NCBI GenBank assembly: GCA_016783665.1
Contig: JADHWC010000010.1
Location: 1 to 43,305, forward strand
Source: Fidelibacterota bacterium
GTDB taxonomy: Bacteria; Fidelibacterota; UBA2242
Direction: 5' to 3'
Length of the DNA: 43,305 nt
Each line of letters opens with the position of its first letter. Position 1 is the first letter of the stretch. The notes beneath the pieces are model-generated. The model searched no databases. It worked only from the letters and a program-made list of their open reading frames with translations, and had not been told where the DNA came from. Shown one piece after another: positions 3,012-39,674 of the stretch. The position numbers were made by a program, and so were the translations under genes.

Positions 3012-3119
3012 AAAATTCGTAACTATTCAGCCGCAAACATGTCAGGTTTTATAATTTCCTTTTGGCAACAGGGCTTTACTCTGTAACCCTTCCACATCAC
3101 AACCCCGAAGCAAAATTAT

Positions 3120-3262
3120 AAACATTAACCACTCAATTTATTGAGTGGATTTGACGCTTCCAGCAATACAAACCGAATTTATTCGGTGAGTACCCCGACT
3201 AAAGTCGGGACGACAGGTAGAAGCCATTTTATCCCATCGAATAAATTCGATGGTTAATGTTT
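3120..3262. repeat. 143-bp element: four hairpins enclosed by a 12-bp inverted repeat
   Basis: The outer arms 3120-3131 (AAACATTAACCA) and 3251-3262 are perfect reverse complements. Inside are four perfect hairpins with 2-4 nt loops: 3129-3148 (CCACTCAA/TTGAGTGG), 3172-3187 (ACCGAAT/ATTCGGT), 3194-3209 (CCCGACT/AGTCGGG) and 3234-3253 (CCATCGAAT/ATTCGATGG). Each has an A/T-only loop. There is no coding content, so the arrangement resembles a miniature repeat element or a structured RNA rather than a terminator. Class unknown. Confidence 0.65.
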
Positions 3263-3294
3263 TTCTGCAGCCGAGCTAAGTGCCGTTGCGTAGC

Positions 3295-3318
3295 GCCTGC
3301 CCGACCTGTCAGGCGGGG
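3295..3318. repeat. GCCTGCCCGAC-type hairpin repeat, copy 2
   Basis: GCCTG (3295-3299) pairs with CAGGC (3310-3314) around a CCCGACCTGT loop, and GGGG follows. It shares GCCTGCCCGAC and AGGCGGG with the copy at 1351-1370. Confidence 0.5.
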
Positions 3319-3382
3319 AGCCCCGGAACGATAATAAAACTTGCTCACTTTATATAGCTGAGTAGTTACAAAAATTCTAACA

Positions 3383-3481
3383 ATGCGTATGAACCCGGCG
3401 CTTAGATATCTTCTTCCGTCAGTAGCCGGACTTTCTGCTTTTGATGATTTTGAAGATTTTAAAGAAGATTTTTTGAAATAA
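3383..3481 (+). CDS. possible 32-residue acidic microprotein
   Basis: ATG 3383 opens a 32-codon frame ending at TAA 3479-3481. The second half is regular and acidic-aromatic (AFDDFEDFKEDFLK), as in an amphipathic helix. No clear Shine-Dalgarno precedes it and no family is recognised. It could be chance or a gene remnant. It lies just before a TA-like pair, where short antitoxin-like genes would not be surprising. Confidence 0.18.
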   Translation: MRMNPALRYLLPSVAGLSAFDDFEDFKEDFLK

Positions 3482-3540
3482 TAATGGAGTTGTGGGATAA
3501 AATCTCGCCGTACCACATCTCCAGATCGTTGGAAATTTGA

Positions 3541-3572
3541 TTTGTATAAAGACCGTTCCTTTGCTATCTTTT
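3541..3572 (+). promoter_or_regulatory. candidate Bacteroidetes-type promoter
   Basis: TTTG at 3541-3544 and TATCTTTT at 3565-3572 are separated by 20 nt, close to the Bacteroidetes -33/-7 pattern (TTTG, 19-21 nt, TAnnTTTG). The -7 box ends 4 nt before ATG 3577, so the transcript would be nearly leaderless, consistent with the lack of a Shine-Dalgarno. One match of this quality can arise by chance. Confidence 0.25.
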
Positions 3573-3576
3573 ACTC

Positions 3577-3774
3577 ATGAAACTGAATAGAATCATTACC
3601 AGGAAATACTCTTCAAGCAAATCCGGAATAGAAAAGCCGGCGCAAATTTCAGCGAGTGAATCGATCTCTTTTGTTTGGGATTTAAGCAAAGAAGTATTCT
3701 CATTAACGAAGAAACACGATGTTGAATCAAGACTACAAAGAGATGTTATCAACATTATTAGAAGAAGAAGTTAA
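3577..3774 (+). CDS. small partner protein of the nucleotidyltransferase TA-like pair
   Basis: A 65-residue basic protein. The C-terminal two-thirds (SFVWDLSKEVFSLT, then VESRLQRDVINIIRR) matches a small-protein pattern I recognise upstream of MNT-like nucleotidyltransferases, with consensus roughly 'W.LT.E.W...ESRLQR'. Its last 56 nt overlap the next gene in a different frame, and both readings of that DNA carry conserved-looking sequence. It is probably one member of a two-gene TA-like or regulatory pair; which member is the toxin is not shown by sequence. No Shine-Dalgarno is visible. A possible -33/-7 promoter lies at 3541-3572. Confidence 0.6.
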   Translation: MKLNRIITRKYSSSKSGIEKPAQISASESISFVWDLSKEVFSLTKKHDVESRLQRDVINIIRRRS

Positions 3775-4162
3775 TTTTCTTCTTGTTGGTGCATATGCCA
3801 TGGCGGCACACGGATATCCTAGTGCAACAGGAGATATCGACATTTTTATTCAGCCGAATGAAACCAATGCCGAAAAAGTCTATAGTGCATTGATCAAATT
3901 TGGAGCGCCTTTAAAGAACGTTTCCATTGAAGATTTTTCAACCCCGGGCACGATTTTTCAAATCGGAGTTGCGCCAAGAAGAATTTACATAATCAACTCA
4001 ATAGACTGCGTGTCATTTGAAGATGCTTACTCAGACAGAATAATCGTTGAAATCGAATCCATTCCTGTTCCCGTTATTTCCAAAGAGAATATCATCAAAA
4101 ATAAAGAGGCGACAGGCAGGCCAAAGGACAAGCTTGACGCCGACAACCTTAAGAATTCCTGA
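3719..4162 (+). CDS. MNT-like nucleotidyltransferase (DUF6036-type) of a TA-like pair
   Basis: A 147-residue minimal nucleotidyltransferase. LLVGAYAMAAHGYPSATGDIDIF (residues 21-43) has the beta-polymerase-fold pattern: a Gly-rich turn, then D39 and D41 as metal ligands. The C-terminal VPVPVISKENIIKNKEATGRPKDKLD block is the usual end of this family, so the protein appears full length. Relatives act as toxins or antitoxins that transfer nucleotides to tRNA or to a partner. The start at ATG 3719 gives the typical 'DYKEML..L' N-terminus and places the first 56 nt inside the upstream gene. The substrate is not predictable. Confidence 0.75.
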   Translation: MLNQDYKEMLSTLLEEEVNFLLVGAYAMAAHGYPSATGDIDIFIQPNETNAEKVYSALIKFGAPLKNVSIEDFSTPGTIFQIGVAPRRIYIINSIDCVSFEDAYSDRIIVEIESIPVPVISKENIIKNKEATGRPKDKLDADNLKNS

Positions 4163-11576: not shown

Positions 11577-12671
11577 ATGATTGGATTAAAACTACTCGAC
11601 CGTTACATCATTACTAAATTCCTGATTATTTTTCTGCTTTCACTAATTACGTTCCTGGCAATTTTCCATATCGTCGATGTGATTGAAAAGATCGATAAAT
11701 TTCTGAAATCACAGATGTCTCTCACCGATGTGGGTTGGTATTATTATTATCAGTTTCCATATTTCATTGACATCGCTATTCCTATGTCTTTATTGCTGGC
11801 GACTGTTTTTACTATCGGCATGCTTGGGAAAACTAATGAGTTGGGCGCTATTAAAGCCTCGGGCATCAGTCTGTATCGCTTATCCATCCCGCTGTTGCTT
11901 ATCGGTTTTTTATTCAGCGTGGGCACTTATTTTTTTGAAGATGCCGTCGTAATTCCTGCATCGCGCAAACGGATCGACATTGAACAAAATCAGATGAAAC
12001 GGCACAAGAGGCGCAAAAAGACCGTCTATAATAACATCATGTTTCAGGATTCGCCCACCTGCAATATCGTGATCTCCAAATATGATACAAAAAATTATAC
12101 CGGTAACACTATTACGATTCAGCAAACCAGGAACAACATACTCACTCAGAGAATTGACGCCCGTAAAATGGTATGGAATCCTGATCAAAATGCCTGGTTG
12201 CTGAGCGATTTCAAAATCCGCCAATTCAATGCCGAAGGTTACGAAACAGTATCTTCAATTTTTACCGACTCGCTTTTTCAATTTAACCTGCGACCGCAGG
12301 ATGTTACCCAAACCAGTCTGGACCCGGAAAGTATGCGTTTCAGGGAACTATCAGATTTTATCAAACGCCTTCAGGAAAGCGGAAACGATCCCCGCAAATG
12401 GAAAGTTAACCTCTATTTTAAATTGGCGTTCCCCTTCACTAATTTTATTGTTATTCTGTTCGGTTTACCCCTCGCTGCCATGCGGGAAAAAAAAAGCATA
12501 AGCTTTGGCGCCGGTATGAGCCTGCTGGTAATTTTTATCTACTATGGCTTTATCAAATTCGGTCAGGTAATGGGATATAGAGGGCTGCTTAGTCCCATGC
12601 TATCAGTCTGGATCGGAAATATAGTATTCCTGGCAGGAGGCGCATACCTTCTGTACAAGATCCGCCAATAA
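11577..12671 (+). CDS. lptG: LptF/LptG-family lipopolysaccharide export permease
   Basis: A 364-residue YjgP/YjgQ permease. ATG 11577 gives the expected opening MIGLKLLDRYIITKFL. The frame is open far upstream, but that part runs antisense to nhaC. There are three N-terminal membrane helices with the conserved LGAIKASGISLYRL coupling region (about 85-98), a large periplasmic beta-jellyroll (about 130-260) and three C-terminal helices (FGLPLAAMREKK loop). LptF/G work with the LptB ATPase to move LPS from the inner membrane to the Lpt bridge, so the organism should have an LPS-bearing outer membrane. AAGG directly abuts the ATG, so the ribosome site is weak. The stop is only 12 nt from the convergent gene. 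Confidence 0.9.
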   Translation: MIGLKLLDRYIITKFLIIFLLSLITFLAIFHIVDVIEKIDKFLKSQMSLTDVGWYYYYQFPYFIDIAIPMSLLLATVFTIGMLGKTNELGAIKASGISLYRLSIPLLLIGFLFSVGTYFFEDAVVIPASRKRIDIEQNQMKRHKRRKKTVYNNIMFQDSPTCNIVISKYDTKNYTGNTITIQQTRNNILTQRIDARKMVWNPDQNAWLLSDFKIRQFNAEGYETVSSIFTDSLFQFNLRPQDVTQTSLDPESMRFRELSDFIKRLQESGNDPRKWKVNLYFKLAFPFTNFIVILFGLPLAAMREKKSISFGAGMSLLVIFIYYGFIKFGQVMGYRGLLSPMLSVWIGNIVFLAGGAYLLYKIRQ

Positions 12672-12683
12672 ATTAATGCTGTA

Positions 12684-14036
12684 TTATTGTTTGGGTTCTT
12701 TCCTTCGCCCGGTCGTATAGACAACGAATGAAAAATCAATCCCCTTAGCAGTTGTAAACCATAAACCGTGATTTAATCCCAGCGCCCAATCAATGTGAAT
12801 GAACCCGGCATGATATCCACTGCCAAATGATAACTGCCGATGATCTTTCCCGCCAAATGAAACGCCTACCCGGATGGGAAGCTTTGGAGAGCGGGTAAAT
12901 TCCACACCAGTGCACCACTTCCAGGCTCCGAATGAATACAGGCGATCTTCGAATCCTACGACAAAATCCGTACTAATCTGGATACCGTCCTCCAGCCATT
13001 TGGACATACTGAAACGCGCCAGGCTGGGATAACGCATTACGAATTCTGTTGAATCTTGCACGGTTTCTCCACCCCCTGGGAAAATATCATCATAGTCGCT
13101 CTTCCCGAAAAACTTATCAAAGCGGGCTTCATTCACCTGAAATTGATATACATAATGATCGCCGTCCCAGAAAAATCCTTTGTCGCCCATTATTCTGGAC
13201 ATAAGAGTGCTTTTATTCCAGTTGATTCTCCCAAAGATATTGGTCACGGAAAAACCGAATCGATACCCCTTAATTTCACTCGACGTTATTCCGAAATCCA
13301 GCCCGAAACCGCGCCCGCCGATGGACTGTTGAAAGAGATAATATCCCTCGCCTGTAATGTAATTCTTTCCGGGCTCGAAGTAGGTTACAATTGAACCGTA
13401 AGATGAATCGGGATTCAGTCCCAGATAGCTGATCCCCTGCAGGTATTTAAAGGTAAATCCCACAAAGAAATCACTGACCGGAAAAGCAAACGAATATGCC
13501 AATTGATTCATCAGGAGAAATTCCTCGTTAAAATCCAGACTCAATTCTTCTCCTATAGGATTACCATCAAAAATAAATTGCACCATTCCTTTCGGGAGAC
13601 CAATATCACCGATCATGATCAGATCCGATGTAAAGGCTTTATTTGCCCGGGAAAAGTTTAAATAGGGCAAAGGTATATGTAGATCTGTGAATATTCGCCA
13701 ACCATTGGATGGAATTTCGCTCATAAATTGCTGTTTCAATTTCCCGCCATCGGCTTCCAGATCCTTACCGTTATATTCGTTATAATTTTGCAGGGAAATG
13801 AAATTATTTGAAAAACTGGTGTTGATACCACCTATTAAACGGTAGGAATTGTATTTGCCTTGAATAGCCAGGTTGGCTGGATTGTAATCTACCGTGAACA
13901 ACCCACGCGCCATGACGCCGTAGGCGCCTGCCAATGCCATTCCCCGTGGATCTCTGCGGGTTTGAGCCATTGACGGCAATACAAGCCCCAATATCATCAT
14001 TATAATCCAGAATCCTTTTAACCGTAATAACGACAT
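12684..14036 (-). CDS. DUF5723-like outer-membrane beta-barrel protein, copy B
   Basis: A 450-residue protein with a signal peptide (cleavage near SMAQ) and alternating-residue beta strands throughout, as in an outer-membrane barrel. The N-terminus PRGMALAGAYGVMARGLFTVDYNPANLA is the FadL/PorV-like motif of DUF5723-type proteins. It is a clear paralogue of the protein at 16344-17768: shared blocks include NPANLA, a GKDL..GKL stretch, HIPLP.(V/L)NF, NKAFT(T/S)(N/D), KY.QG..Y.GL(D/N)P and a C-terminal HLDWA-like strand. One nucleotide separates it from its lipoprotein partner upstream (14038-16296). It is the last gene of a long minus-strand run. Function unknown; a transport or assembly partnership with the lipoprotein is inferred. 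Confidence 0.75.
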   Translation of the reverse strand: MSLLRLKGFWIIMMILGLVLPSMAQTRRDPRGMALAGAYGVMARGLFTVDYNPANLAIQGKYNSYRLIGGINTSFSNNFISLQNYNEYNGKDLEADGGKLKQQFMSEIPSNGWRIFTDLHIPLPYLNFSRANKAFTSDLIMIGDIGLPKGMVQFIFDGNPIGEELSLDFNEEFLLMNQLAYSFAFPVSDFFVGFTFKYLQGISYLGLNPDSSYGSIVTYFEPGKNYITGEGYYLFQQSIGGRGFGLDFGITSSEIKGYRFGFSVTNIFGRINWNKSTLMSRIMGDKGFFWDGDHYVYQFQVNEARFDKFFGKSDYDDIFPGGGETVQDSTEFVMRYPSLARFSMSKWLEDGIQISTDFVVGFEDRLYSFGAWKWCTGVEFTRSPKLPIRVGVSFGGKDHRQLSFGSGYHAGFIHIDWALGLNHGLWFTTAKGIDFSFVVYTTGRRKEPKQ

Positions 14037-14037
14037 C

Positions 14038-16296
14038 TTATTTTTTCCTAAACCCAGTCTGCTTTTTTAAACTATCCGTCTCGGTCGTATCCTGATCTGC
14101 ATCGCCGGTCCCGAATAAGGCTCCGGCTTCCATCGTCAGACTAAGCACCGTAATAATATCAATTTTATCATTATATCCAATGGAAACAAAATCATCGGTT
14201 CTGTCTAAATGGATACGAGGACGGATATAGTGGACTTCATCCCCAATGATAGTCTCTACTCTGGCAGAGTCAAGAGTGGATGTATGTTCCACAAATCCCG
14301 GAATTTTCACTCTGTTTGCCTGATCGAGAACCGGCGCCGGCAATTCGATGGTCACTAAAGTATCGATAACGATATTTATCACCCCGGTATCGGTAATAGC
14401 GAAAAGGGAATCATTAATCCATTGATATCCCGAGTCAACGCTATCCGGTGACAATGGAAAATAGTCATAGTTCGAAATAAGCACGTCCACTCTGCCGGAT
14501 AGTGGAAAATCATTAACGACTTGTGATACAATTGAGGCTTCAATAAATCCATCCTGGATACGTTGTCGGGTTTCTTCATCCATTGGAGACATTTCGTTTG
14601 ATTTGACCGGAATAAAGGTCATGTTATTTACTTGCATGTTAAATGGCACAACAACTTCATAGGTTCCCCAGAATGATTTGTTGACCTGCAGTTTGGAAGT
14701 ATCATTTGCCGGGATAGCCGCTTCTCCGAAAACCATCATGGAATCGGGAACCAAATTAAAAATCGTGGCGATATCAATTACCAGATTCGACTCGGCAACA
14801 GGCTCCGCATCGCTTGCCTTTAGGATGGTTTCATTAGCCGTGATTATTTCAGGTTCCTGTCCTTCCTTGTATCCCTCAATATTAAATTCCAATTCAGTTT
14901 GCGCCTGTATTTCATTAAACAGGTGGATAATTAGTAATACTTCTCCGAAATTCACATCACCGAAACCAGTGGGAATATCACTGATCGTTAATGGCGGTAT
15001 GGCAAAAGTTTCATTGAAAAAACCTTCAATTTCCTTGAATTTGATAACGGAAATATTAAGTTTAAAATCCAACATCCCACCGCCAAAGTCGAGCGGAATG
15101 GTCGTTACCGTATCACCCGGATCCGGCAACAGTTCGATTGTCGTCACAACAATGATCGAATCCACAACTGTTGTAGGATCAGGATTTCTTAGCGTGTCCA
15201 GATCGAGGCGCTCGGAACTGTCGGAAACCGTATCTGTATATAGCAAAGCCTTGATTGTCAAAGCTCCCGTTTCAGTATAAAAATTTAAAAATGTCATGTC
15301 CATATCCATATTGATCGGCAATGTGTTTTCAATCCGCCAGCTGATCAGATTCGTATCGAGACTGAGAGTTGGCGTTTCACCGATAATGCCACGGAAGATT
15401 GTATTGTTCGACTCGGGCAACGGTTGGGCAACACGGGTTTCGATTGGTTCCGGTTTCCCCGTAAAACTCTCTATTTCCTCCATCTCAACACCTATAATCA
15501 ATGTCAAATACGGGTCGGTATTTGCGGGGATTGTAAGCGGCTGATCGTTGGTGCCAGCCAGAATAGCGGATATTGAGATAATAACCTGATCCATAATCTG
15601 CTTTCCCCGCAGATCACTGCTATCTGTCACCGTTTCTCCTGGAGGAATGGTTTCATAAAACGACTCTGCGATTAAACTGCCATCTCTGTTTTTCATTTGA
15701 ATAATGACTGAATCCATTGCCATCAGCATTTCATTTTCTATTGATGTTGAAAAGTTCCCCTTGCCAATCGTAAGGTAATCCACTCGTTCAAAATAGGGAA
15801 TACTGTCACTACTGAAAATCTGATATGAATAATCCTGATCTATTAAAGGCATACGAGGGACTGGATTGATGGTCAGGTCCACCGATTGAGGTAACGGTAT
15901 ACCAAATAATGTTGAGAATTTTATTGTTTGTGGAATTGAAATTGATACCGGATTATTTGCCTGATCTATATCGGCAAAATCCTGCTGAAATGTCACTGAT
16001 GTTGCCGATGGAATAACAAAAATATCCTCGGTTAAGGTAACGGTATCCAGCGAACCATCGAATTTGAAGTAGAGCGAGTCCGATAATGAGTCACCGTATA
16101 TATTGTTCGTTGTATCGTGCAATCCAGAGAGATAAAGCGTTACGTCGGCAAGAGGCAGGTTAATTGTCTGATAAAATTTGGGCATTTCCGGTGGCTGAAG
16201 CGGTTCGAAAGTACAGCTGAACGCTACCCATAAAAGGATAATAATTATAAAGATAAACAGAGTTTTAAAATTTACTGGAATTCGAAAGTGTGTCAC
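14038..16296 (-). CDS. large lipoprotein of the duplicated module, copy B
   Basis: A 752-residue protein with a lipoprotein signal: hydrophobic residues 10-27, then the lipobox AFSC. The mature part begins CTFEPLQPPEMPKF and is rich in beta-strand and Asp/Ser/Thr, with recurrent 'DSI', 'DTL' and 'PANDT' patterns and no enzyme motif. It is paralogous to 17773-19473: both mature proteins start C.FE.P..P.(M/L)P with an I.LPL.D strand and share a C-terminal block of YFP/EFP...GY.(W/Y)INDSL/INDTL followed by an IDTL..I(E/D)LP strand. It ends 1 nt before the barrel gene, suggesting a stoichiometric pair. I recognise no characterised family. Confidence 0.7.
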   Translation of the reverse strand: MTHFRIPVNFKTLFIFIIIILLWVAFSCTFEPLQPPEMPKFYQTINLPLADVTLYLSGLHDTTNNIYGDSLSDSLYFKFDGSLDTVTLTEDIFVIPSATSVTFQQDFADIDQANNPVSISIPQTIKFSTLFGIPLPQSVDLTINPVPRMPLIDQDYSYQIFSSDSIPYFERVDYLTIGKGNFSTSIENEMLMAMDSVIIQMKNRDGSLIAESFYETIPPGETVTDSSDLRGKQIMDQVIISISAILAGTNDQPLTIPANTDPYLTLIIGVEMEEIESFTGKPEPIETRVAQPLPESNNTIFRGIIGETPTLSLDTNLISWRIENTLPINMDMDMTFLNFYTETGALTIKALLYTDTVSDSSERLDLDTLRNPDPTTVVDSIIVVTTIELLPDPGDTVTTIPLDFGGGMLDFKLNISVIKFKEIEGFFNETFAIPPLTISDIPTGFGDVNFGEVLLIIHLFNEIQAQTELEFNIEGYKEGQEPEIITANETILKASDAEPVAESNLVIDIATIFNLVPDSMMVFGEAAIPANDTSKLQVNKSFWGTYEVVVPFNMQVNNMTFIPVKSNEMSPMDEETRQRIQDGFIEASIVSQVVNDFPLSGRVDVLISNYDYFPLSPDSVDSGYQWINDSLFAITDTGVINIVIDTLVTIELPAPVLDQANRVKIPGFVEHTSTLDSARVETIIGDEVHYIRPRIHLDRTDDFVSIGYNDKIDIITVLSLTMEAGALFGTGDADQDTTETDSLKKQTGFRKK

Positions 16297-16343
16297 TCAG
16301 CAATGGTCCCGGGATATTAATTAACCCAACAGATTATGATTAA

Positions 16344-17768
16344 TTATTTTGATTTTTTCTTACCGGTAAAATATGAGATCAATGAGAAGTGAATCCCCTT
16401 TGAAGTATGCAGCCAGATACCCCGATGAAATCCGATGGCCCAGTCCAGATGGGCAAAACCAAGATGCAGACCGCTGCCCAGGTTTACCTCCCACCCGCTG
16501 ATATCACCAATAGCAAGCCCGAAACGTAGGGGTGTTTTGGGCAGATACGTATATTCAACTCCCATGGAGCAACGCCAGCCTTTATGATAGTTGAAGCGAT
16601 CGCTAAAACTGGTTGAAAAATCCAGCGCCAGCAGTAAATCTTCCTTCATCTGCTTTGCCAGTCCAAATCGCAACACCAGCGGTAATTTAGTCCTGAAAAT
16701 CGTCGAGTCATCCTCGCTTACTTCTTTTTTACTGTAAAAGAAATCGCTGTAGGCGCTATCCCCTTCGAACAACTCGTTGGCGGCAACATTGCTAAATGCA
16801 AACTGATAATGAAAGGATTCACCTTCAAAGGGCAGATCAAGATTCTTGTTTTTTATCAACCCGTCCTTTACCTGATTACCCATAAATTCCAGTATTGAGG
16901 TTCCCATACCGTTTGAAAAAAGAGTAGGTTTGTTCCATTTTATCACAGCGGCAATATTTTGAACGCTGAACCCTATATTCAAGCCGCTTTTATCACGATA
17001 AGTGACGCCGAGATCAAGACCAACGCCTTTTCCCGCTCCGGATTGCCGGAACAGGTAATCACCTGAACCGGTTAGTACGAATGATGCAGTATCTACTTCG
17101 ATCAACCCTGTACTGCGTTTGGGATCTAATCCGTAATACCCCAGACCCTGAATATATTTCAAAGAAAATCCAAACGCCAGGTTTTCATAAGGAATTCCCA
17201 TGGAATAGGCGTATTCAATCGCCGTCATGGCGTCTATACGAAGATCAGTCTCGTATTTTACGCCCTTTTCCCAGTTTCCGAAAATCACATCCAGCGCCGG
17301 TTTGGAAATGTAATAATCCGATATGTAAAGTACATTCGTTGTAAACGCTTTATTTCCAACGGAAAAGTTTACGATCGGCAGAGGAATGTGAATACTGTAG
17401 TTAGTACGCCAGCCGGTATCGGGTAAATCGGCAAGGAATTCCCGCTGAAGTTTCCCATTTTCGACAGTCAGGTCTTTTCCACCGTATTTCGAGGTCGTGA
17501 GCAGAGAATAGAAATTATTGGTCATCTGCCAATCGATTCCACCCAGGTAAAAATAGGATTTATACTTCGACGGAAATGCCAGGTTAGCCGGATTGCTGCT
17601 GACACTGAACACTCCTTCGGAAATTGCCGTAAAAGCGCCGCCCAGAGCAACCGCACGCGGATGAGTTAGAGTCTGTCCGGATAATGACACGACCATAATC
17701 AGCAAAATCACCGCAACCTGTTTTTGGCTTCGAATTCTTATCTGATTAGGTATAATTGGCATTTTCAT
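16344..17768 (-). CDS. DUF5723-like outer-membrane beta-barrel protein, copy A
   Basis: A 474-residue exported barrel-like protein. The signal peptide (about residues 1-31, ending near LSGQ) follows a basic N-terminus. PRAVALGGAFTAISEGVFSVSSNPANLAF is the FadL/PorV-like opening, and strands continue to the C-terminal aromatic HFSLISYFTGKKKSK. It is homologous to copy B over its whole length but clearly diverged, so the duplication is old. It lies 4 nt after its lipoprotein partner (17773-19473) and 47 nt before copy B's lipoprotein. The location is predicted as outer membrane; cargo or partner is unknown. Confidence 0.75.
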   Translation of the reverse strand: MKMPIIPNQIRIRSQKQVAVILLIMVVSLSGQTLTHPRAVALGGAFTAISEGVFSVSSNPANLAFPSKYKSYFYLGGIDWQMTNNFYSLLTTSKYGGKDLTVENGKLQREFLADLPDTGWRTNYSIHIPLPIVNFSVGNKAFTTNVLYISDYYISKPALDVIFGNWEKGVKYETDLRIDAMTAIEYAYSMGIPYENLAFGFSLKYIQGLGYYGLDPKRSTGLIEVDTASFVLTGSGDYLFRQSGAGKGVGLDLGVTYRDKSGLNIGFSVQNIAAVIKWNKPTLFSNGMGTSILEFMGNQVKDGLIKNKNLDLPFEGESFHYQFAFSNVAANELFEGDSAYSDFFYSKKEVSEDDSTIFRTKLPLVLRFGLAKQMKEDLLLALDFSTSFSDRFNYHKGWRCSMGVEYTYLPKTPLRFGLAIGDISGWEVNLGSGLHLGFAHLDWAIGFHRGIWLHTSKGIHFSLISYFTGKKKSK

Positions 17769-17772
17769 TAAC

Positions 17773-19473
17773 CTATCCGGTCGTATCCATCGTATCGGTT
17801 TCAGTCTGATTCAATACCGACGGATCAAATAATAAATTCATATATATTTTCAGCCCGATTGAATAATTCGATCGTAAAAGTACTTGCGTAGTATCGGGGT
17901 TCGTCAAATAAAATTTCGGCAGGATATAACAGGTGTCCGCTAATAATGCCAGCACACTGGAATCCGCCATATAAAACACATCGCCAACCCCAGCATATAA
18001 TAGCGTATCGTTCCGCATCTGCGCCAGAGGAAGGTCGATAACAGCCAGTGTGTCGATGAGCACCATTTCCGTATCAGCTGCAATATAGTAGAGTGTATCG
18101 TTAATATATTCATAACCGGCATAACAATCAGCTTCCGCAGAATCAGTTGGAAATTCTCTATGATTGCCAATCAGTAAATAAATAGATCCGCTGAATGGCG
18201 TCCGGTTCGTTACACTTATGTCAAATTGAGCGCCATTCTGGGATCGGCTTACATTTGACCGGGTCAGACTGTCTGTAATGAAAAACCGGGTTGGATTTGC
18301 GGCGGCCAGCTGTATCTCTACCGGCAGGGTAATTCGAAGTGGCGCATACAGCCGATAGCCGACGGTCAATTCATTTTCGAAAGTGCTGCCGTTATACCAA
18401 TCCGTCACCAGACTGGCTTCGACATAAAACGTGATACTGTCCGGAAGATTCGCCATGATTCGCCCAATATTCAGCTCATAAGCCGTTCCGCTCACCGTAA
18501 AGACAGAATCAATTATTGTATCTGCGACGTGTTGCTTTTTTCCACTCATGATAAAAATAATCGACTCGAAGCCGTCGGCATTGGCCAGGCTAAAATCGAC
18601 AACGGCTCCTTCAAATTGAATACTGTCGGCTCCAATCGGGCTACTGATAAATTCCTGGGTGCTGAGATTCCCGAAGGCGTTGACGCTCCCGTAAAATTGA
18701 TTCAGACTAATCTCACCGACCTCAATGGTAATATCCAAATCCTGATTCAAGGGTTCCCGCAGTGTATCCTGTATCTGCACGGCAATGGCAAACGCCAAGG
18801 AATCGACAAATGAGATTCTGTCCAGACTCATTACCGAGTCGTCTTCTACCGCTAAGGTCAGCGTGTTCTCCAAAACATTTGCGGCCAGTGATAGGGTATC
18901 AAACCAGACCGTATCCGCGGCAACGTTATAAAAATTCCGGGCAACGACTGCAATGTCCAGATCATTCGCCAGCGAATCCGACAGCGTCGCCGTAATCCGA
19001 ATGGAATTCACAGCAGCGCCGGCATCGGAATTCATTAATCCCTTGATAACCTGGTTGTTTTGTGTGCTCACTTCTCCGAGCAAATCGGTCCGATAGACCG
19101 GAACAGGATTATTCACCTGGGCATTTATCGATGCTAAGTCAATCCGTTTCTGTATGGACAGAGCCGGAATTTTCCAATAGTCGGGAGAGATGGGCACCGA
19201 TTGACCCGGCAAATTTTCAGCCAGATAGTACATCTGCTTAAAACTCGTATCCGCATAAATCGGATTAGACTGATCCGCCGTAGAATCATAAACCATATCC
19301 AGAAAAGAATATGTTTTATCCAGCAGCGGAATGATTAATTTTGAATTCCAGCGCGCCGGTAAACGAGGCATTGTGGGCACTTCGAATTCACATCCGATCA
19401 CCCACCACAATAAAAGCAGTAAAAAATATAAGGTTATTCTGTTTTTCACATCATTCTGCCGCGAATGTATCAT
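17773..19473 (-). CDS. large lipoprotein of the duplicated module, copy A
   Basis: A 566-residue lipoprotein. A basic N-terminus and hydrophobic stretch end in the lipobox WVIGC, followed by EFEVPTMPRLPARW. The mature region is beta-rich, with many DSL/DTL repeats and no catalytic motif. It shares its start and its C-terminal domain with copy B (14038-16296), while the middle is about 185 residues shorter, so the paralogues differ by internal domain gain or loss. It follows ahcY by 12 nt and precedes its barrel gene by 4 nt, so it should be co-transcribed with metK and ahcY. Function unknown. Confidence 0.7.
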   Translation of the reverse strand: MIHSRQNDVKNRITLYFLLLLLWWVIGCEFEVPTMPRLPARWNSKLIIPLLDKTYSFLDMVYDSTADQSNPIYADTSFKQMYYLAENLPGQSVPISPDYWKIPALSIQKRIDLASINAQVNNPVPVYRTDLLGEVSTQNNQVIKGLMNSDAGAAVNSIRITATLSDSLANDLDIAVVARNFYNVAADTVWFDTLSLAANVLENTLTLAVEDDSVMSLDRISFVDSLAFAIAVQIQDTLREPLNQDLDITIEVGEISLNQFYGSVNAFGNLSTQEFISSPIGADSIQFEGAVVDFSLANADGFESIIFIMSGKKQHVADTIIDSVFTVSGTAYELNIGRIMANLPDSITFYVEASLVTDWYNGSTFENELTVGYRLYAPLRITLPVEIQLAAANPTRFFITDSLTRSNVSRSQNGAQFDISVTNRTPFSGSIYLLIGNHREFPTDSAEADCYAGYEYINDTLYYIAADTEMVLIDTLAVIDLPLAQMRNDTLLYAGVGDVFYMADSSVLALLADTCYILPKFYLTNPDTTQVLLRSNYSIGLKIYMNLLFDPSVLNQTETDTMDTTG

Positions 19474-19485
19474 TGATTCTCTGTT

Positions 19486-20742
19486 CTATGTTCCTTCGCT
19501 ATATGCTGTTTTATATCGTATTTGTTCTTCTGTCAAATAATCAATGTCCAAACCCATGGTTTTGAGCTTCAAAGCTGCGATTTCCTGATCCTGTTCCTCG
19601 GATATGTCATAGACTTTATTTTCCAGCTTCCCGGCATTCTTTGCCAGGAACATCATCGCCATGAACTGGTTAGCAAATGACATATCCATCACTTCGGACG
19701 GATGTCCTTCGGCGGCAACCAGATTCACCAGGCGTCCTTCGCCGAGTATGAAAATTCGTTTTCCGTTTTTTAACGTATACTGCACACAATTCGGTCGAAT
19801 TTCTTTTTTCGACTCGGTTAATTCTTCAAGATCATTGAGATTGATTTCACAATCATAGTGACCGGTATTACATACAATCGCGCCGTCTTTCATCTTTTCA
19901 AAATGGCGTTTGACAATTACATCTTTCATGCCGGTTGCCGTAATAAAAATATCACCGATCGATGCGCATTCATCCATTGGCATGACTCGATATCCATCAA
20001 GGGTTGCTTTTAGAGCCGCGGTTGGTTTCACTTCGGTGCAGATCACATTAGCGCCCTGACCATCGGCGCGCATGGCGCATCCTCTTCCGCAATGTCCATA
20101 TCCGGCAACGACAAAGGTCTTGCCTGCTATTAAAACGGATGTTGCACGAATAATACCATCCATCGATGACTGACCGGTGCCATATACATTATCAAAATCC
20201 CATTTCGTTTCGGCATCATTTACCGCCACAACCGGATATAGCATTTTCCCATCCGCCGCCATTGCCCGCAAACGGTGAATACCGGTGGTCGTCTCTTCCG
20301 ACCCACCCAATATTTTCCCGGCTAATTCCGGATATTTATTATGAATCGTAAAGATCAAATCCGCACCGTCATCCAGAGTAAGCGTCGGCTCTTGTTTCAG
20401 GGTCTGATCGATGCACCAGTAAAATTCTTCCGTCGTTAATCCATGCCATGCCCAGATGGGAATACCTTCTTCGTAGAGTGCGGCAGTGACGTCATCCTGA
20501 GTGCTAAGTGGATTACAGCCACTCCAGGCAACCTGAGCTCCGGCGGCTTTAAGCGTATGAATCAACACGGCTGTCTCTTTAGTAACATGTAAACAACCGC
20601 TAATCCGCATTCCTTTTAAAGGTTTTGCTTCTTTATATTTTTCACGCAGTAGCATCATTACCGGCATATGGGACTCAGCCCATTCAATTTTCAATCGACC
20701 GGATTCGGCAAGTTTTATATCTTTTATTTTTCCTTCCATCAT
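19486..20742 (-). CDS. ahcY: S-adenosylhomocysteine hydrolase
   Basis: A 418-residue AhcY that splits S-adenosylhomocysteine into adenosine and homocysteine, relieving product inhibition of methyltransferases. Family blocks are in order: [13 protein letters not shown] (48-60), [13 protein letters not shown] (146-158), [19 protein letters not shown] (174-192, with K180 and D184 at the active site), the NAD-binding GYGHCGRG (214-221) and the C-terminal [15 protein letters not shown]. It lacks the roughly 40-residue insertion of the longer bacterial form. Its start overlaps the metK stop by 4 nt (ATGA), so the two SAM-cycle enzymes are translationally coupled. Confidence 0.97.
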
Positions 20743-21896
20743 TTCACTCCAAAATAGGTTTTTAATTCATCAACTTTATCGGTTTTTTCCCAGGTAAATT
20801 CATCGTCTTCACGTCCGAAATGACCGTAAGCGGCAGTTTTGTAATAAATCGGGCGCTTTAACTGCAAATGCTTGATCAATTCCGATGGTTTCAAGGGAAA
20901 TATCTTACGGATGGCAACTACCAATTTATCTTCGTCCACAACGTTGGTCCCGAATGTATTCGCATACACCGAAACCGGTTCTGCCACACCGATGGAATAA
21001 GCCAGCTGAATTTCACATCTTCTCGCCAACTTAGCAGCGACAATATTTTTTGCGATATAACGCGCCATGTACGAAGCAGAACGGTCAACTTTTGACGGAT
21101 CCTTGCCGGAAAATGCGCCGCCGCCATGGCGTCCCATGCCGCCATAAGTATCAACGATAATTTTTCGTCCGGTTACACCGGCATCGGCTTCCGGACCTCC
21201 CACTGCAAAAATGCCCGTTGCATTAATATAGAATTTTGTTTCGGGAGTCAGATAGGGCTCACATACCGGGAAGATAACGTGCTTCTTTATGTCGCTGACA
21301 ATCTTTTCATGAGGTATATCAGGATTATGATGGACAGCCACGACAACACCGGTAATCGATTTGGGTTCACCGTCAATGTATTCGACCGTGACCTGAGATT
21401 TACCATCCGGTCTGACCCAGTTCAGGATGCCTTTTTTCCGAACCTCCGCCAGGCGCATGGTAATCTTATTTGCCAGGGTAATAGGCAGCGGCATCAATTC
21501 GGGAGTTTCGTCGCAGGCAAAACCAAACATCATACCCTGATCACCGGCGCCCTGTTCATGTTTATCGGTCTCATTCACACCCAGTGCGATATTTTCACTC
21601 TGTTCATGAATCGAAGTGATCACCGAACAACTTGTTGCATCAAGTCCAAAATCCGAATTGGTATATCCGATCCGTTTCAGTGTGTCACGAACTATACGGG
21701 GAATATCTACATATCCCCGGGTTGATATTTCTCCAACGACCATCACCAGTCCGGTAGTCGTAAGCGTTTCACAAGCTACCCGGCTATCCGGGTCCACTGT
21801 CAGTAACGCATCTAATACAGCATCAGAAACGGCATCGCAGACTTTATCAGGATGTCCTTCGGTTACGGATTCAGATGTAAAATGGTATTTTCCCAT
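20739..21896 (-). CDS. metK: S-adenosylmethionine synthetase
   Basis: A 385-residue MetK making SAM from methionine and ATP. It shows [12 protein letters not shown] (7-18), the [10 protein letters not shown] methionine/ATP loop (116-125), the [10 protein letters not shown]-loop (about 257-265) and a C-terminal YGHFGR block; the length is normal. A GGAG site lies about 10 nt before ATG 21896. It is coupled to ahcY (4-nt overlap). The 55-nt gap to the upstream gene is too short for a known SAM riboswitch, so control is probably by the operon promoter. Confidence 0.98.
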
Positions 21897-32738: not shown

Positions 32739-35700
32739 TCACTTCACGAGCAGCATCTTATGCAATCGGTGAAACTGTCCGGCGGTGATTGCATAAAAAT
32801 AGACTCCTGAGGGAAGAATTTTGCTATTATTATCACAGCCATCCCAGCATATTTCGTAAAATCCAGGGGTCTTGTTTTCATCCGTCAAAATGCCGACTTT
32901 CCGCCCCAGTATGTCAAATATTTCAATAGTCACATGTGTCTCAACCGGAATGTCAAAGCGAATTATAGTAGAAGCGTTAAACGGATTGGGATAATTCCGG
33001 TGCAATGCAAAACTTCCGGGCAGAAGTCCCACACTTACATAGACATTATTGCCGAAATGATCCGCAGCGATGATTTTTTGAATTTTCCCGTTAGACGAAA
33101 GTGTCGCAATAATTCCCTCGTCAGCCAATATATCATTTCCGTTGACACTGTAAAGCAGCAATTTATTCTTATCGGCTCGGGCTGTTATTTTTTCATTTTC
33201 GAGAATGTGATTGAAAAAAACCGGGTAGCAGTCTGAATCAAATTGGATTTCCAGACCGGCGATCGGTTTGGTCGTTCTATACCGTATTTGACCATTTTGC
33301 TGGATAATTTCCAGCCTGCCTTCCACAAAGTCCGTTGGTTTCGTAAATCCTTCCCGTCCTAACAATTTATTAATCACCCAGATCAGGTCCAGCACGTTGA
33401 TATCCTGGTCGCTATTTAAATCAGCCGCCCACCGTTCATAGTCATCGGGCTGTTGATTTGGATAAAGGATTAAATTCACAATTTTGACCATATCCAGTAT
33501 ATTAACAAAGCCATCTTTATTGACGTCGCCCTTAGACAGATCCGGTTCAGCCAGTAAATACTCTATTGTATTTTCAAGAAGATCTTTACGTTCAATTTCG
33601 TCGGCGAGTTTATCAAAAGCAAATGTGTAAAATATTACTTTTGCGCCGTAAATATTTTCAGAATCTTCATATAGAATGATTCCACCCTGAGATGGTTCAC
33701 CATTATTGTAATAAATAATATGAGCATTGGAATCCGGCGTGCAGGCATCATCGTCGCCGTAGCTCGAATAATCTATTTCCAGTTTGGAGAGTAGTTTGTT
33801 TGGAATTAATACAATATCATGGTAATAATTCAACTGGTATAACGCTCCTGCATTATCGGCATGCCATTGAGAAATATGTAAAACATTCTGGGCAAACGAC
33901 GGATATCCTGGTAAACTATCAGCATCGTATCCAACTTCTCCGCCTTCAACGAGAAGTCTGCCGCCCTCCGCCATGTAGGACTCCAGCATCGATCGGTAAT
34001 CGCCACTCAACACCGGATTCATATTCGATCCCGACGATGAAATCACCATATTAAATTTATTCAGTTTGTTCGCAGTCTCTTCGTCAAACCCGGTTTTCAT
34101 GACATAGTAGCCCAGTAATTCGAGTACATCCTGTATTTCGGATGCGCTTTGTCCTTTTTCAGCTTCATTAATTACTATATTCTCATTCAAAGATCTATCG
34201 TTTTTATCAATTAACCGTTTTCCATTGTCATCATCGACAAGCAAAATACTCGCCTTTGTTGTATCCAGGATAAAGTCAAGGTTCACCGGTTGCTCATCAA
34301 TGGTTACCAAAGCGCTGTTGGTCATATATCGAAATGAAGACACCCTGAATAAGTAGGAAGCCTGGGGCAATTCTACCTGGTATGTGCCACCTCCTGATGC
34401 CAATGTCGTAACCGTTGTATAATAAATTGGAAACTCGTCATCCGTTCGATATAGAAAAATTTCCGCATCCAGAGGCTGTCCGGATGGATTACCTGTAACT
34501 GATCCGGATACCACTGTCCGGGCTAATTCGTTCATCTCGATATCTATCGTGTTTTCACCGGATTGAATAATATGATCGAAGGTCTGTGAGAGATAACCAA
34601 ACAGACTTGCCTTGATCCGGTATTCGCCAACTTCCACAGATAGCTGATAAGAATATTCACCGGAATCATTTGTCACACAATTAAAAACCGCATCAATCGT
34701 ATCCGGTAACAGAAATCCTTCGATTGATAGACCAGCTAACGGAAGATGATTTGTGTCATTAACCAGTCCGCTTACTGTTCCATAAACCTTTTTTACGGCA
34801 AAGGATTCTTCAAATACATTGTAGCCTTGTTCCAAAATACCAGCGTGAATAACACCGGTAAATTCCGGGACGACTTCAATGAATTTTCCGTTTGCAACAG
34901 TATCGATTCCGCAACCGGACACAGCAATAGAACAGTCCATTTCATCACAACTTGCCTGAATAACGCCCTCTTTGCCCGTTAACAATGCCCCGGTCACTCC
35001 ATATTCCGGAACTTCGGCATTTATTCCCGCATTTTGAAAAGACACCCCTCCGCTGACTTGCAGATACCGGGAAAACAGGAAATTTTCATCCTCCGGGTTT
35101 TTCCCTTTTATTGTGAGAGTTTCACCATATTTGGGTATAATTTTAAAATTCAACATCCCAACCGAATCTGTAACGCCCAACAGACTGTCTGCCGAAACTG
35201 TCCAACCTGCCAGGTATATTTCAAGACTGTCGTATGGTTTAGCATCACAGTCAAGGACAGTTATATCCATCTGTGTTGTTTTACCCACCGGAATCGCCGA
35301 CGTGTCCAGCGTTACATTCAACGGATGAATGACATTGACGGTATCAATATAAGGTATGTACTGATTTCCTGAAACCGTCAACAGCATCTGACCCGTTTGA
35401 AGCATCGATGAATCGAGCATTATCGATACCCGACCGTCAAAATCTGTGATCCCATACCCAATAATATTCCAATCCTGAGTAAGTGTGACTTTCGCATTCT
35501 CAACATTAACACCTTCATTTTGAACAACTACATCAAACTGATTTGAATTAGTAGAATGAATTGGGTTATAGTTTACGGACAGACTTTTCGGAATTCCGAT
35601 CCACGGAATAATTGTCGGATCACCAAGGATATTGTAAATATCATAATAATATTCAGAGATTGATCTTGCCTGCCGGTAAACCTCAATCAGTCCCCGCTGA

Positions 35701-37310
35701 ACCATCGCGCTAATGGAATATTTTTCTTCCTGGAAATAACCGTCATACATGCCCCGCTCCATAATATCATCGGGTTCCCAGTAACTCGAATTCGACGCCC
35801 CGATAAATGCGAATGCTCCTTTATTATCTGCCCGAATCCAGCTTTCGCCAAAGCATTCCGGCCGGGCAAAACTGCCGGTTTCACAGGCATTGCTCATGAC
35901 AAAAAAGGAAACCGAAGACGAATCCAGTGTTGCGATATCGGTCATGGTAAATTCCGGTCCCTGCCACATTGTGGAAATACCATGTCCGGAATAGTGGCAA
36001 ATCGTTCGCCCGCCATTTAAAGCCTGATGAATATCCGCAGTATTTCCGCCGGAATGCCCTTTGATATGATCGCTTTGGATTCCCCGTGGATTCAAATGAT
36101 TGTTGATCACATAATCGTGAGAACCTTCAGCAATCCACCAGTTTTCATCATCGTCGGTTGAAATGAATGTTATACTGTTCAAAAACTCAATGTCTTCGAA
36201 GTTGCACTGTTCATAGTTCATTGACTTATGAATAACGGCGGACAACTCTTCATTGCTGCTAACGGAAAACCGACCGATCATGAGGTCGGGAATATAATCT
36301 CTGACCGATATCTGTGTATAGGGAACATCAGTCTCGGTTTTACTTTCGATTCCGGTCCATGCCGGTACATCTTCAATATCGCCGATCAACAGGATATAGG
36401 CGAGAGGCGTCTCGCCGTTATATTCCGCCACGATGAAATTTTTGATGTCAGAAGCTTCGCCTCCTATATCGGCTACGGAATGAAGCGCGACCCGATACCC
36501 GGTTTGCCTTTTCCAATCGAGGTATTTCGCCAGATCAGGGAGGTCGATGAACCGCTCGGCGGCGATTACCAGAAGAATGAGTGGCTGCGGCGTAATTTCA
36601 GTTTCCGGTTCATTAAAATTGACAAACATGTCCCTTGCGATTTTGGATAATTCGGGATGAGGCACTTTGGGTTTGTCATAAAATTCTGAGTCCATCCTGT
36701 CTTTGATAAATCGGATTTGAACAGTTGCTTCGGAACGAATTTTAAGAGAATTTTGAACCGGATTATAATCTAACGGGTAAAATTCCAGCATCGCTCCACG
36801 AACACTTCCCATTTGAAATATGTTTCCGATCCAAATTGTGCCGGGCTTATAAAAATGGTCGCTTTCATAAAGTTCTTTATCAATATTAAATAACTTTTGC
36901 CGAGGTGAGACAGATTTTCGCTGAAAGGGTTGAACAGGCAATACTGGTTCGGGATAATTGTTTTTCCGTAATGATAAGACCTCTTCCTTATCAATTGTAA
37001 TGTCCCATTCAATTTTGCAACCCTCTGGAATTTCTATCATCTTTCGAATCACCGGAAGCCGGGGCTTGCCAACCACATACTGAAATCCTTCTCCGGGAAT
37101 GTCGATCCGGGTAAATGGTTTATCATTCTCTGTAACTGTACTGATTTTAAGATACTTCAGTGTAATCTTCAGACTAAGTTCAGATGACGTTGCAAATTGT
37201 GTAATTGTATATGAAGATTGACCAAGATTTGCATCACTCAACCTGACCGAACCAAAGATTATGGACTGAAGTAGAATTATTGCGGTGATATAATACAAAG
37301 ATTTATTCAT
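32739..37310 (-). CDS. secreted C25 (gingipain-family) cysteine protease with dockerin and Por-type sorting domain
   Basis: 1523 residues, signal peptide at about 1-20. An N-terminal propeptide-like region (to about 240) precedes the C25 domain, with catalytic H443 (CHYSGHG) and C476 (MSNACETGSF). After it come an Ig-like domain, two carboxypeptidase-regulatory-like repeats (VSGLVNDTNHLPLAG; VSGSVTGNPSGQPLD), a glutamine-amidotransferase-like segment (ILLVDDDNGKR...EGGRLLVEGGE), a dockerin (about 1260-1318; GDVNKDGFVNILD and ADLNSDQDINVLD calcium loops) and a possibly cohesin-like stretch (AGLEIQFDSD). The C-terminus (about 1433-1523) starts NYPNPFNASTIIRF and is a Por/type IX-like sorting domain. 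It is probably a surface or released endopeptidase. No secretion-system gene is in the window. Confidence 0.9.
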   Translation of the reverse strand: MNKSLYYITAIILLQSIIFGSVRLSDANLGQSSYTITQFATSSELSLKITLKYLKISTVTENDKPFTRIDIPGEGFQYVVGKPRLPVIRKMIEIPEGCKIEWDITIDKEEVLSLRKNNYPEPVLPVQPFQRKSVSPRQKLFNIDKELYESDHFYKPGTIWIGNIFQMGSVRGAMLEFYPLDYNPVQNSLKIRSEATVQIRFIKDRMDSEFYDKPKVPHPELSKIARDMFVNFNEPETEITPQPLILLVIAAERFIDLPDLAKYLDWKRQTGYRVALHSVADIGGEASDIKNFIVAEYNGETPLAYILLIGDIEDVPAWTGIESKTETDVPYTQISVRDYIPDLMIGRFSVSSNEELSAVIHKSMNYEQCNFEDIEFLNSITFISTDDDENWWIAEGSHDYVINNHLNPRGIQSDHIKGHSGGNTADIHQALNGGRTICHYSGHGISTMWQGPEFTMTDIATLDSSSVSFFVMSNACETGSFARPECFGESWIRADNKGAFAFIGASNSSYWEPDDIMERGMYDGYFQEEKYSISAMVQRGLIEVYRQARSISEYYYDIYNILGDPTIIPWIGIPKSLSVNYNPIHSTNSNQFDVVVQNEGVNVENAKVTLTQDWNIIGYGITDFDGRVSIMLDSSMLQTGQMLLTVSGNQYIPYIDTVNVIHPLNVTLDTSAIPVGKTTQMDITVLDCDAKPYDSLEIYLAGWTVSADSLLGVTDSVGMLNFKIIPKYGETLTIKGKNPEDENFLFSRYLQVSGGVSFQNAGINAEVPEYGVTGALLTGKEGVIQASCDEMDCSIAVSGCGIDTVANGKFIEVVPEFTGVIHAGILEQGYNVFEESFAVKKVYGTVSGLVNDTNHLPLAGLSIEGFLLPDTIDAVFNCVTNDSGEYSYQLSVEVGEYRIKASLFGYLSQTFDHIIQSGENTIDIEMNELARTVVSGSVTGNPSGQPLDAEIFLYRTDDEFPIYYTTVTTLASGGGTYQVELPQASYLFRVSSFRYMTNSALVTIDEQPVNLDFILDTTKASILLVDDDNGKRLIDKNDRSLNENIVINEAEKGQSASEIQDVLELLGYYVMKTGFDEETANKLNKFNMVISSSGSNMNPVLSGDYRSMLESYMAEGGRLLVEGGEVGYDADSLPGYPSFAQNVLHISQWHADNAGALYQLNYYHDIVLIPNKLLSKLEIDYSSYGDDDACTPDSNAHIIYYNNGEPSQGGIILYEDSENIYGAKVIFYTFAFDKLADEIERKDLLENTIEYLLAEPDLSKGDVNKDGFVNILDMVKIVNLILYPNQQPDDYERWAADLNSDQDINVLDLIWVINKLLGREGFTKPTDFVEGRLEIIQQNGQIRYRTTKPIAGLEIQFDSDCYPVFFNHILENEKITARADKNKLLLYSVNGNDILADEGIIATLSSNGKIQKIIAADHFGNNVYVSVGLLPGSFALHRNYPNPFNASTIIRFDIPVETHVTIEIFDILGRKVGILTDENKTPGFYEICWDGCDNNSKILPSGVYFYAITAGQFHRLHKMLLVK

Positions 37311-38081: not shown

Positions 38082-39674
38082 TTACGGGCTTTGATTTAAA
38101 ATATACTGAGTGATCCCGACAATATCGGCGATATTCAACTCATTATCACTGTTCCAATCTGACAAATTGAATTCGTCACTACTCGGCGAAAATCTACCCG
38201 TAATATAATTTACAACCCGCGTAATATCCGCGACATTGACAAAACCGTCGTTGTTAACATCACCACAAGAACCTGACTGTAAAAAGATATTAACTGTTGT
38301 TGCATTTCCGGGTTCGACAGAAATTTGGCGTACGACTTTTGTAAAAAGATCATTGCTAAATTCCAGATCATACACTCCCTGTAAACACAGACGATAATAA
38401 TCACTCAAATCTGAATCGGAAAATACCCAGGAATTATCCTTTTCATGATCAACAATACTGATCTGAACTTCAAGCGGATCACTTCCGTATCTGACTTCTC
38501 CCCTAATACCGGTTAATGCCGCCGCCATATAATTCAACAGAGCCGCCCGATTATACTCCCAATGAGCTGGTAGCTCCGATGTCGGGAGCAGCTTTTCATT
38601 CGACAATTCAATAGTAGTTTCACGGCAATGCTGAAAATAGGTCATATAATCCTGCCGACCGCCATAAATATCGTACCAGTCCCAGCCATTAGTAATACCG
38701 TTATTCTCGTCAGTCATATAAGCTGCCGGACTGTTTGCCTGTACCGTGTCGGCATACTGACGACAGAGCCAGATCAGCCACTCATCATCTGCGTGACGCC
38801 GTTCCCAGCAGTCCCAGGGATAATTCAACAGCTCCGCTCCACCGTGGAAATTCGCAGACAGTACAAAATTCTGTCGTTCAGCCAATTCCATCATGGCAAC
38901 AGTCTCCGGCTGCCAGGAATATCCATCAGGATGATCGCCCTCCTGTGGATCGGGAAAATTCCGGTTAAGATCAACGCCATTGGCATTATATCGCGTCGCT
39001 CCGTACACGGTAGTATCACCATTATAATAAGTGCCATCAGGGTTAGCAAGAGGATTAATCCAGATTTCCAGGTTATCAACGAGGTAAGTCAATTTATCAT
39101 TCACACCATAATTCCGTAATAAATAGTCGATTAATCTCAGCATCAGGACAAAACCTGTTGTTTCATCGCCGTGCATTGTGGATGTATATAAAAATTCCGG
39201 CTCGGCATCATCGGAATTGACGTTATCCGAAATTTTCGCAAACAGAATTCCCCGCCCATTAACGGATGCACCAATACTATCGATCCGGCATATATCGGGA
39301 TAGTCCTTCGCAAATTGATACATCATTGAGACATAGGCATCGTAAGTAGGATAGGAATCCCAGAGAGCAGCACCTTTTACCGATTCACTCATGCGGGGTT
39401 TATGTTTCAGGCTCGGCGCTGTTAGAAATTCAACGGTTTTATCCAGTTTTTGAAATTTCGCCAACTCCTGTTTATTTGCATAAGCATAAACCGTATCACC
39501 CTTGACATTGTCGATAGAGATCATTCTGGTAATTAGAGTTAGTTCATCTCTGGACTGAATAGTGAACCGAAAATATACTTCAGGACGTGATGATCGGCCC
39601 TTTGATACTTCCGCAAAAGAAACGGAAACCATCCAAAGGGTCAATATTGCGACGATTATACAGGTGTTTTTCAT
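38082..39674 (-). CDS. secreted M14 zinc carboxypeptidase with C-terminal dockerin
   Basis: 530 residues, signal peptide about 1-21 (SFAE). The M14 metallocarboxypeptidase domain has H168 and E171 (MHGDE), NPLANPDG, VDLNRNFP, H277 (ANFHGG) and the catalytic Glu in TTIELSNE (E357), so the zinc site and catalytic base are intact. A small beta-sandwich (about 392-470) follows. The end (about 472-530) is a type I dockerin with two calcium loops, GDVNNDGFVNVAD and SDWNSDNELNIAD. Unlike the neighbouring secreted proteins it has no NYPNPFN sorting domain. It probably trims peptides outside the cell, perhaps docked to another protein; no obvious cohesin scaffold is in the window. Confidence 0.92.
   Translation of the reverse strand: MKNTCIIVAILTLWMVSVSFAEVSKGRSSRPEVYFRFTIQSRDELTLITRMISIDNVKGDTVYAYANKQELAKFQKLDKTVEFLTAPSLKHKPRMSESVKGAALWDSYPTYDAYVSMMYQFAKDYPDICRIDSIGASVNGRGILFAKISDNVNSDDAEPEFLYTSTMHGDETTGFVLMLRLIDYLLRNYGVNDKLTYLVDNLEIWINPLANPDGTYYNGDTTVYGATRYNANGVDLNRNFPDPQEGDHPDGYSWQPETVAMMELAERQNFVLSANFHGGAELLNYPWDCWERRHADDEWLIWLCRQYADTVQANSPAAYMTDENNGITNGWDWYDIYGGRQDYMTYFQHCRETTIELSNEKLLPTSELPAHWEYNRAALLNYMAAALTGIRGEVRYGSDPLEVQISIVDHEKDNSWVFSDSDLSDYYRLCLQGVYDLEFSNDLFTKVVRQISVEPGNATTVNIFLQSGSCGDVNNDGFVNVADITRVVNYITGRFSPSSDEFNLSDWNSDNELNIADIVGITQYILNQSP

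Follow-up and report, generated by a model that had tools for sequence, protein, structure and literature searches.

The locus analysed in this study raises a simple question: does each of two lipoproteins encoded head to tail with outer-membrane barrels work with its own barrel, and has a system of this make-up been described before? The host of this contig (C104) is a 2.38-Mb Candidatus Neomarinimicrobiota MAG (91.7% complete), placed in this phylum through its named relatives. Coordinates refer to the window, i.e. the whole analysed stretch of 43,305 nt, unless another locus is named.

Organization of the tandem array

The minus strand of the window encodes, at positions 12684-19473, Lp2, B2, Lp1 and B1, in this order. 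The ORF coordinates confirmed the two head-to-tail lipoprotein-barrel pairs with an internal spacing of 1-4 nt that had been proposed in the initial annotation. As measured on the sequence, 4 nt separate Lp2 from B2, 1 nt separates Lp1 from B1, and the pairs are 47 nt apart (B2-Lp1). The region contains the following features:

11577..12671, plus strand: LptF/LptG-family permease gene (lptG), convergent with B1; 364 aa from the ATG at 11577; PF03739, E 5.3e-82
12684..14036, minus strand: B1, DUF5723/FadL-superfamily barrel of pair 1; 450 aa; Pfam PF18990, E 5.5e-11
14038..16296, minus strand: Lp1, lipoprotein of pair 1; 752 aa, GTG start, lipidation at Cys28, mature start CTFEPLQPPEMP
16344..17768, minus strand: B2, DUF5723/FadL-superfamily outer-membrane barrel of pair 2; 474 aa; Pfam PF18990, E 8.9e-13
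17773..19473, minus strand: Lp2, lipoprotein of pair 2; 566 aa, lipobox VIGC, mature start CEFEVPTMPRLP; profile A3
19486..20742, minus strand: ahcY, S-adenosylhomocysteine hydrolase, directly upstream of Lp2 (Pfam)
20739..21896, minus strand: metK, S-adenosylmethionine synthetase, upstream neighbour (Pfam and neighbourhoods)

The gaps in the series metK-ahcY-Lp2-B2-Lp1-B1 are short or absent, and the array meets the convergent LptF/LptG gene. A scan of the region for promoter- and terminator-like sites gave no excess over shuffled sequence. In a close relative (L005) approximately 970 bases (3032-3998), with an unrelated small lipoprotein-like ORF inside (3050-3526), part B2 from Lp1, and the C-terminus of B2 is altered. 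Elsewhere in the window, the minus strand encodes a 1523-aa C25-family peptidase (32739-37310). Besides a propeptide, it has dockerin-like and carboxypeptidase-regulatory domains and a weakly matching type IX sorting domain. The neighbouring genes appear to encode secreted proteins as well: the product of 38082-39674 is an M14 carboxypeptidase with a dockerin, and that of 39785-43249 has a sorting domain.

Comparison of the pairs upheld the paralogy suggested earlier for both members. B1 and B2 are approximately 40% identical, and Lp1 and Lp2, at approximately 20% identity, are homologous, as seen from their N-terminal part (E 5e-7) and from clear profile similarity. The lipoproteins have the same mature start (CTFEPLQPPEMP, CEFEVPTMPRLP) and INDSL/INDTL block, as previously described. 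The difference of about 185 residues between them was correct in size (186 residues), but had been placed in the middle of the protein, whereas the segment without a counterpart in Lp2 (residues ~52-240 of Lp1) lies towards the N-terminus. Most relatives in the phylum have a length of 700-1100 aa, and Lp1 represents this usual long form; Lp2 is therefore best read as a copy shortened by the loss of this segment.

No family was matched by Lp1 or Lp2 in Pfam and NCBIfam, and a search of PDB sequences gave nothing at a meaningful E-value. In an alignment of 72 lipoprotein relatives, the lipidation cysteine (Cys28 in Lp1) is the most conserved column; the mature N-terminus and the C-terminal half are conserved, and the region ~100-290 is variable. 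Under the surface lipoprotein (SLP) rule, which comes from Bacteroidota and not from this phylum, at least two acidic residues are expected among the first six after the lipidated cysteine. Lp2 (CEFEVPT) has at least two and Lp1 (CTFEPLQ) only one, so it is not clear whether a surface-export signal of the Bacteroidota type is present.

Both barrels exceed the cut-off of Pfam DUF5723 (PF18990; 26.8 bits), with scores of 43.2 (B1) and 49.1 bits (B2). The earlier description as "DUF5723-like" thus named the right family, though too cautiously, since both proteins are members. Neither a function nor a partner has been described for DUF5723, and our literature search found no paper naming it.

Distribution of the pair and origin of the array

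The distribution of both families was analysed in 199 genomes of the phylum Neomarinimicrobiota. The barrel profile was found in 145 of these (76 of the 94 good ones) and the lipoprotein profile in 154. A lipoprotein gene was the next gene upstream in all 41 cases where sequence upstream of the barrel was available (loci L043-L082), with a 4-nt overlap in 25 of them. Thirty-three of 41 barrel members from the phylum matched PF18990. Genomes that do not belong to the window's order normally have a single pair, which occupies the same place, beside ahcY and/or a convergent lptG. In 28 of 29 loci lptG adjoined the pair in convergent orientation, and ahcY is a frequent neighbour in other families too.

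Many genomes, including some that lack this first locus, carry a further, unlinked paralogous pair (group C), whose lipoprotein is usually ~985 aa long and whose barrels match PF18990 down to E 1e-27. Each of the 20 sampled group C lipoproteins has a family barrel next to it downstream (18 recognized by profile, and two diverged ones by homology to those). The neighbouring genes (DXS, DNA ligase, CstA, H+-PPase and others) differ between genomes and are unrelated, which indicates that the pair as such, rather than a single conserved gene block, maintains the adjacency. In family f8 (L099, L100, L102, L103, L104), group C barrels have an acidic N-terminal extension of approximately 100 residues and are missed by Pfam DUF5723.

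The lipoprotein-DUF5723 pair is thus no local feature but a module found across the phylum. The tight pairing postulated from the single locus was found wherever upstream sequence was sampled, at two unrelated kinds of site, and a check of genome co-occurrence did not find the two families occurring independently. The module is dispensable in family f9 (reduced genomes of ~1 Mb, e.g. G028 and G006), because neither family is present there; SprA, the type IX secretion system (T9SS) channel, is kept in these genomes. No barrel relatives were found in the plasmid collection.

The order Lp2-B2-Lp1-B1 is present in L005, L007-L010, L045 and L047. In separately built trees of barrels and lipoproteins, group 2 (10 tips) and the group 1 of this order (10 tips) were each monophyletic and were mutual sisters, with support of 0.993 for the barrels and 0.743 for the lipoproteins. 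The same grouping in both trees shows a single event, in which the ancestor of the window's order duplicated both genes together; the joint duplication inferred initially is thus one and the same in the two families.

Lipoprotein and barrel tree distances were correlated (rho 0.72; at most 0.20 in shuffles). At single-copy loci, lptG correlated with the two pair members at 0.80 and 0.76, and the pair members with each other at 0.70 (partial correlation 0.24). As the correlation with lptG is equally strong, this congruence reflects joint vertical inheritance and not contact or specific co-evolution, and the use of tree correlation as evidence for lipoprotein-barrel contact was dropped after this control.

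Comparison with the BamG-BamH unit

The initial statement that no system with this make-up has been described was not quite right. In the BAM complex of Bacteroidota, the FadL-type barrel BamG is clasped by the surface lipoprotein BamH, the conserved lipidated tail of which lies in a groove of BamG, while its body forms an arch above the membrane (PMC12578637, PMC12611786). The N-terminus of BamH is conserved, and a paralogous lipoprotein-barrel putative operon, BamH2-BamG2, has also been described (PMC12578637). BamG and BamH are stated for six of seven other FCB phyla in a text that does not mention Marinimicrobia (PMC12611786). The pairs studied here are similar in combining a FadL-superfamily barrel with a large lipoprotein that has a conserved lipidated N-terminus, and in the existence of a second paralogous pair.

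A joint AF2 model was made from the Lp2-B2 homologue of L009, in which the pair is in frame and was read through one TAG. Like the other structure models it rests on a shallow alignment, and its quality was moderate (mean pLDDT 71.8, pTM 0.42), with no confident interface between lipoprotein and barrel. The barrels are predicted to have a FadL-type fold. The best PDB match of the joint model in Foldseek was 9n2d_B, a chain of the F. johnsoniae BAM complex (E 1.8e-7), followed by TodX, TbuX, 9hiv_F (B. thetaiotaomicron BamADG model) and FadL; PorV was weaker (8gl6_F, E 2e-4). From chain length and the surrounding FadL-type matches, 9n2d_B and 9hiv_F are taken to be BamG.

The Lp1 model (mean pLDDT 61.1) is poor in its N-terminal half. 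In the fold search, this model and the joint model each matched 4h3w (probability 1.0), a putative secreted protein of Parabacteroides distasonis (BDI_1231). It is shorter (312 aa) and only 10-14% identical; we know of no function or partner for it.

Clear differences from the Bacteroidota unit were also found. BamH is a DUF4270 protein (PgBamH, 9hjm_G), whereas Lp1 and Lp2 have no similarity to DUF4270: in a Pfam search neither was matched, 37 relatives gave nothing above chance, and profile A5 showed no similarity to a DUF4270 protein. BamG is distinguished by a barrel N-terminal extension of ~10-12 residues beyond FadL, which B1 and B2 lack. Counted from the likely mature Gln (Q25 in B1, Q32 in B2; cleavage site judged by eye), their NPA motif starts at residue 28, compared with residue 33 in FadL (deduced from mutant names), so that the tail before the motif is shorter, not longer. 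Because the lipoproteins are not DUF4270 proteins and the barrels lack the BamG extension, the pairs were not filed as BamGH.

DUF4270 was detected in one of 61 genomes of the phylum (G034), where a DUF4270 lipoprotein gene is followed, with a 4-nt overlap, by a gene for a 409-aa protein (C29; L125:155-2661). Comparison of the barrels with a gene adjoining a DUF4270 gene gave no convincing similarity.

The fixed order, the frequent start-stop overlap, the duplication as a unit and the persistence at unrelated sites argue that lipoprotein and barrel act together. By analogy, we consider it fairly probable that in each pair a dedicated lipoprotein docks on its FadL-type barrel and that the two work like the BamGH units; the physical complex, the surface exposure and the docking mode are all inferred. 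The FadL-superfamily (DUF5723) barrel would form the platform in the membrane on which its own, mostly beta-strand lipoprotein sits, the two being translated together. The lipoprotein is probably surface-exposed, and, as in BamH-BamG, its lipidated, conserved N-terminal tail is probably held against the barrel while the long body extends away from the membrane like a canopy or lid. The ancestral pair, one per genome and located beside lptG, underwent a single duplication of both genes together when the window's order arose from its ancestor. After the presumed loss of ~185 residues from Lp2, the two complexes probably have the same docking mode, but the lipoprotein body probably handles something different in each.

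A BAM-like accessory role in the assembly of outer-membrane and surface proteins is the least certain step of this explanation, and we regard it as doubtful. Our estimate was kept low mainly because the L119 pair is a rival candidate for the BamH/BamG role that is closer to these proteins in size. This pair, encoded in the same genome (L119:1481-3988; C77), consists of a 401-aa lipoprotein, which diverges fast, and a 433-aa PorP/FadL-like barrel, which a single-sequence query detected in 27 of 61 genomes. It is unlikely, if conceivable, that Neomarinimicrobiota, largely devoid of BamH, built their own extracellular OMP-assembly canopy, with a DUF5723 barrel carrying a lipoprotein unrelated to BamH, and that the window's order duplicated this unit for two client classes. 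The adjoining lptG might suggest a role in LPS transport; this was not adopted, as it comes from gene order alone and group C sits elsewhere.

Alternative roles and significance

The barrel could instead be a FadL-like transporter of hydrophobic or small molecules, with the lipoprotein as a substrate-capture or gating partner and the tandem pairs differing in substrate. The joint model matches structures of TodX, TbuX, FadL and CymD (probability 1.0), and the NPA motif and an N-terminal tail are common to FadL/TodX channels and the barrels. A weak similarity to FadL/Toluene_X (PF03349) was seen, of the two barrels, for B2 only (16.9 bits; no match for B1), below the curated cut-off of 29.7 bits. 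The diverged lipoprotein middles of the paralogues would fit substrate diversification. This role nevertheless appears rather unlikely, since the neighbourhood has no dedicated metabolic or transport genes and the locus is usually single-copy and conserved beside housekeeping genes in most of the phylum. The constant lipoprotein partner is a further difference, and to our knowledge no known FadL-type transporter has a lipoprotein this large.

More improbable is a barrel acting as a PorV/PorQ-like shuttle or attachment component of type IX secretion, with the lipoprotein as its dedicated partner or cargo receptor. SprA occurs in 181 of the 199 genomes, T9SS-tailed proteins are encoded inside the window, and the barrels share the N-terminal NPA-type motif and superfamily fold with PorV/PorQ. 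NCBIfam PorV_fam hits 35 of 41 barrel members. The B2 score stays under the curated cut-off of the PorV/PorQ family NF033709 (44.9 against 90 bits), and B1 has no match. Profile A6 retrieved PorV 6h3i from PDB (E 2.2e-7), but its best stretch spans 64 residues, and the similarity is centred on the N-terminal NPA-type motif, which is common to the superfamily. With single proteins and profiles, the PDB sequence search gave only PorV, mainly through this motif, and a marginal TodX. The PorV fold match is weaker than those to BAM/FadL-type barrels, the large lipoprotein partner sets the pairs apart, SprA is kept in genomes without the module, and the genome has separate PorV-family barrels (L117).

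That the two proteins do not touch, their adjacency reflecting co-transcription and co-regulation alone, is likewise very unlikely: a co-evolution signal no stronger than with lptG and the joint model without an interface fit such a view, but group C pairing persists at unrelated sites and the duplication involved the whole unit.

The pairing supplies both a lipoprotein family that has no name yet and the DUF5723 barrels, which lack a described function, with a fixed partner, in a phylum that is mostly uncultured and whose cell surface is little known. Should the module be associated with BAM, surface-exposed assembly canopies would have arisen or been rebuilt more than once in the FCB group; should it work as a transporter, the FadL types would gain one that is gated by a lipoprotein. 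The tandem duplication provides a natural test of partner specificity, in which matched and mismatched pairs can be compared.
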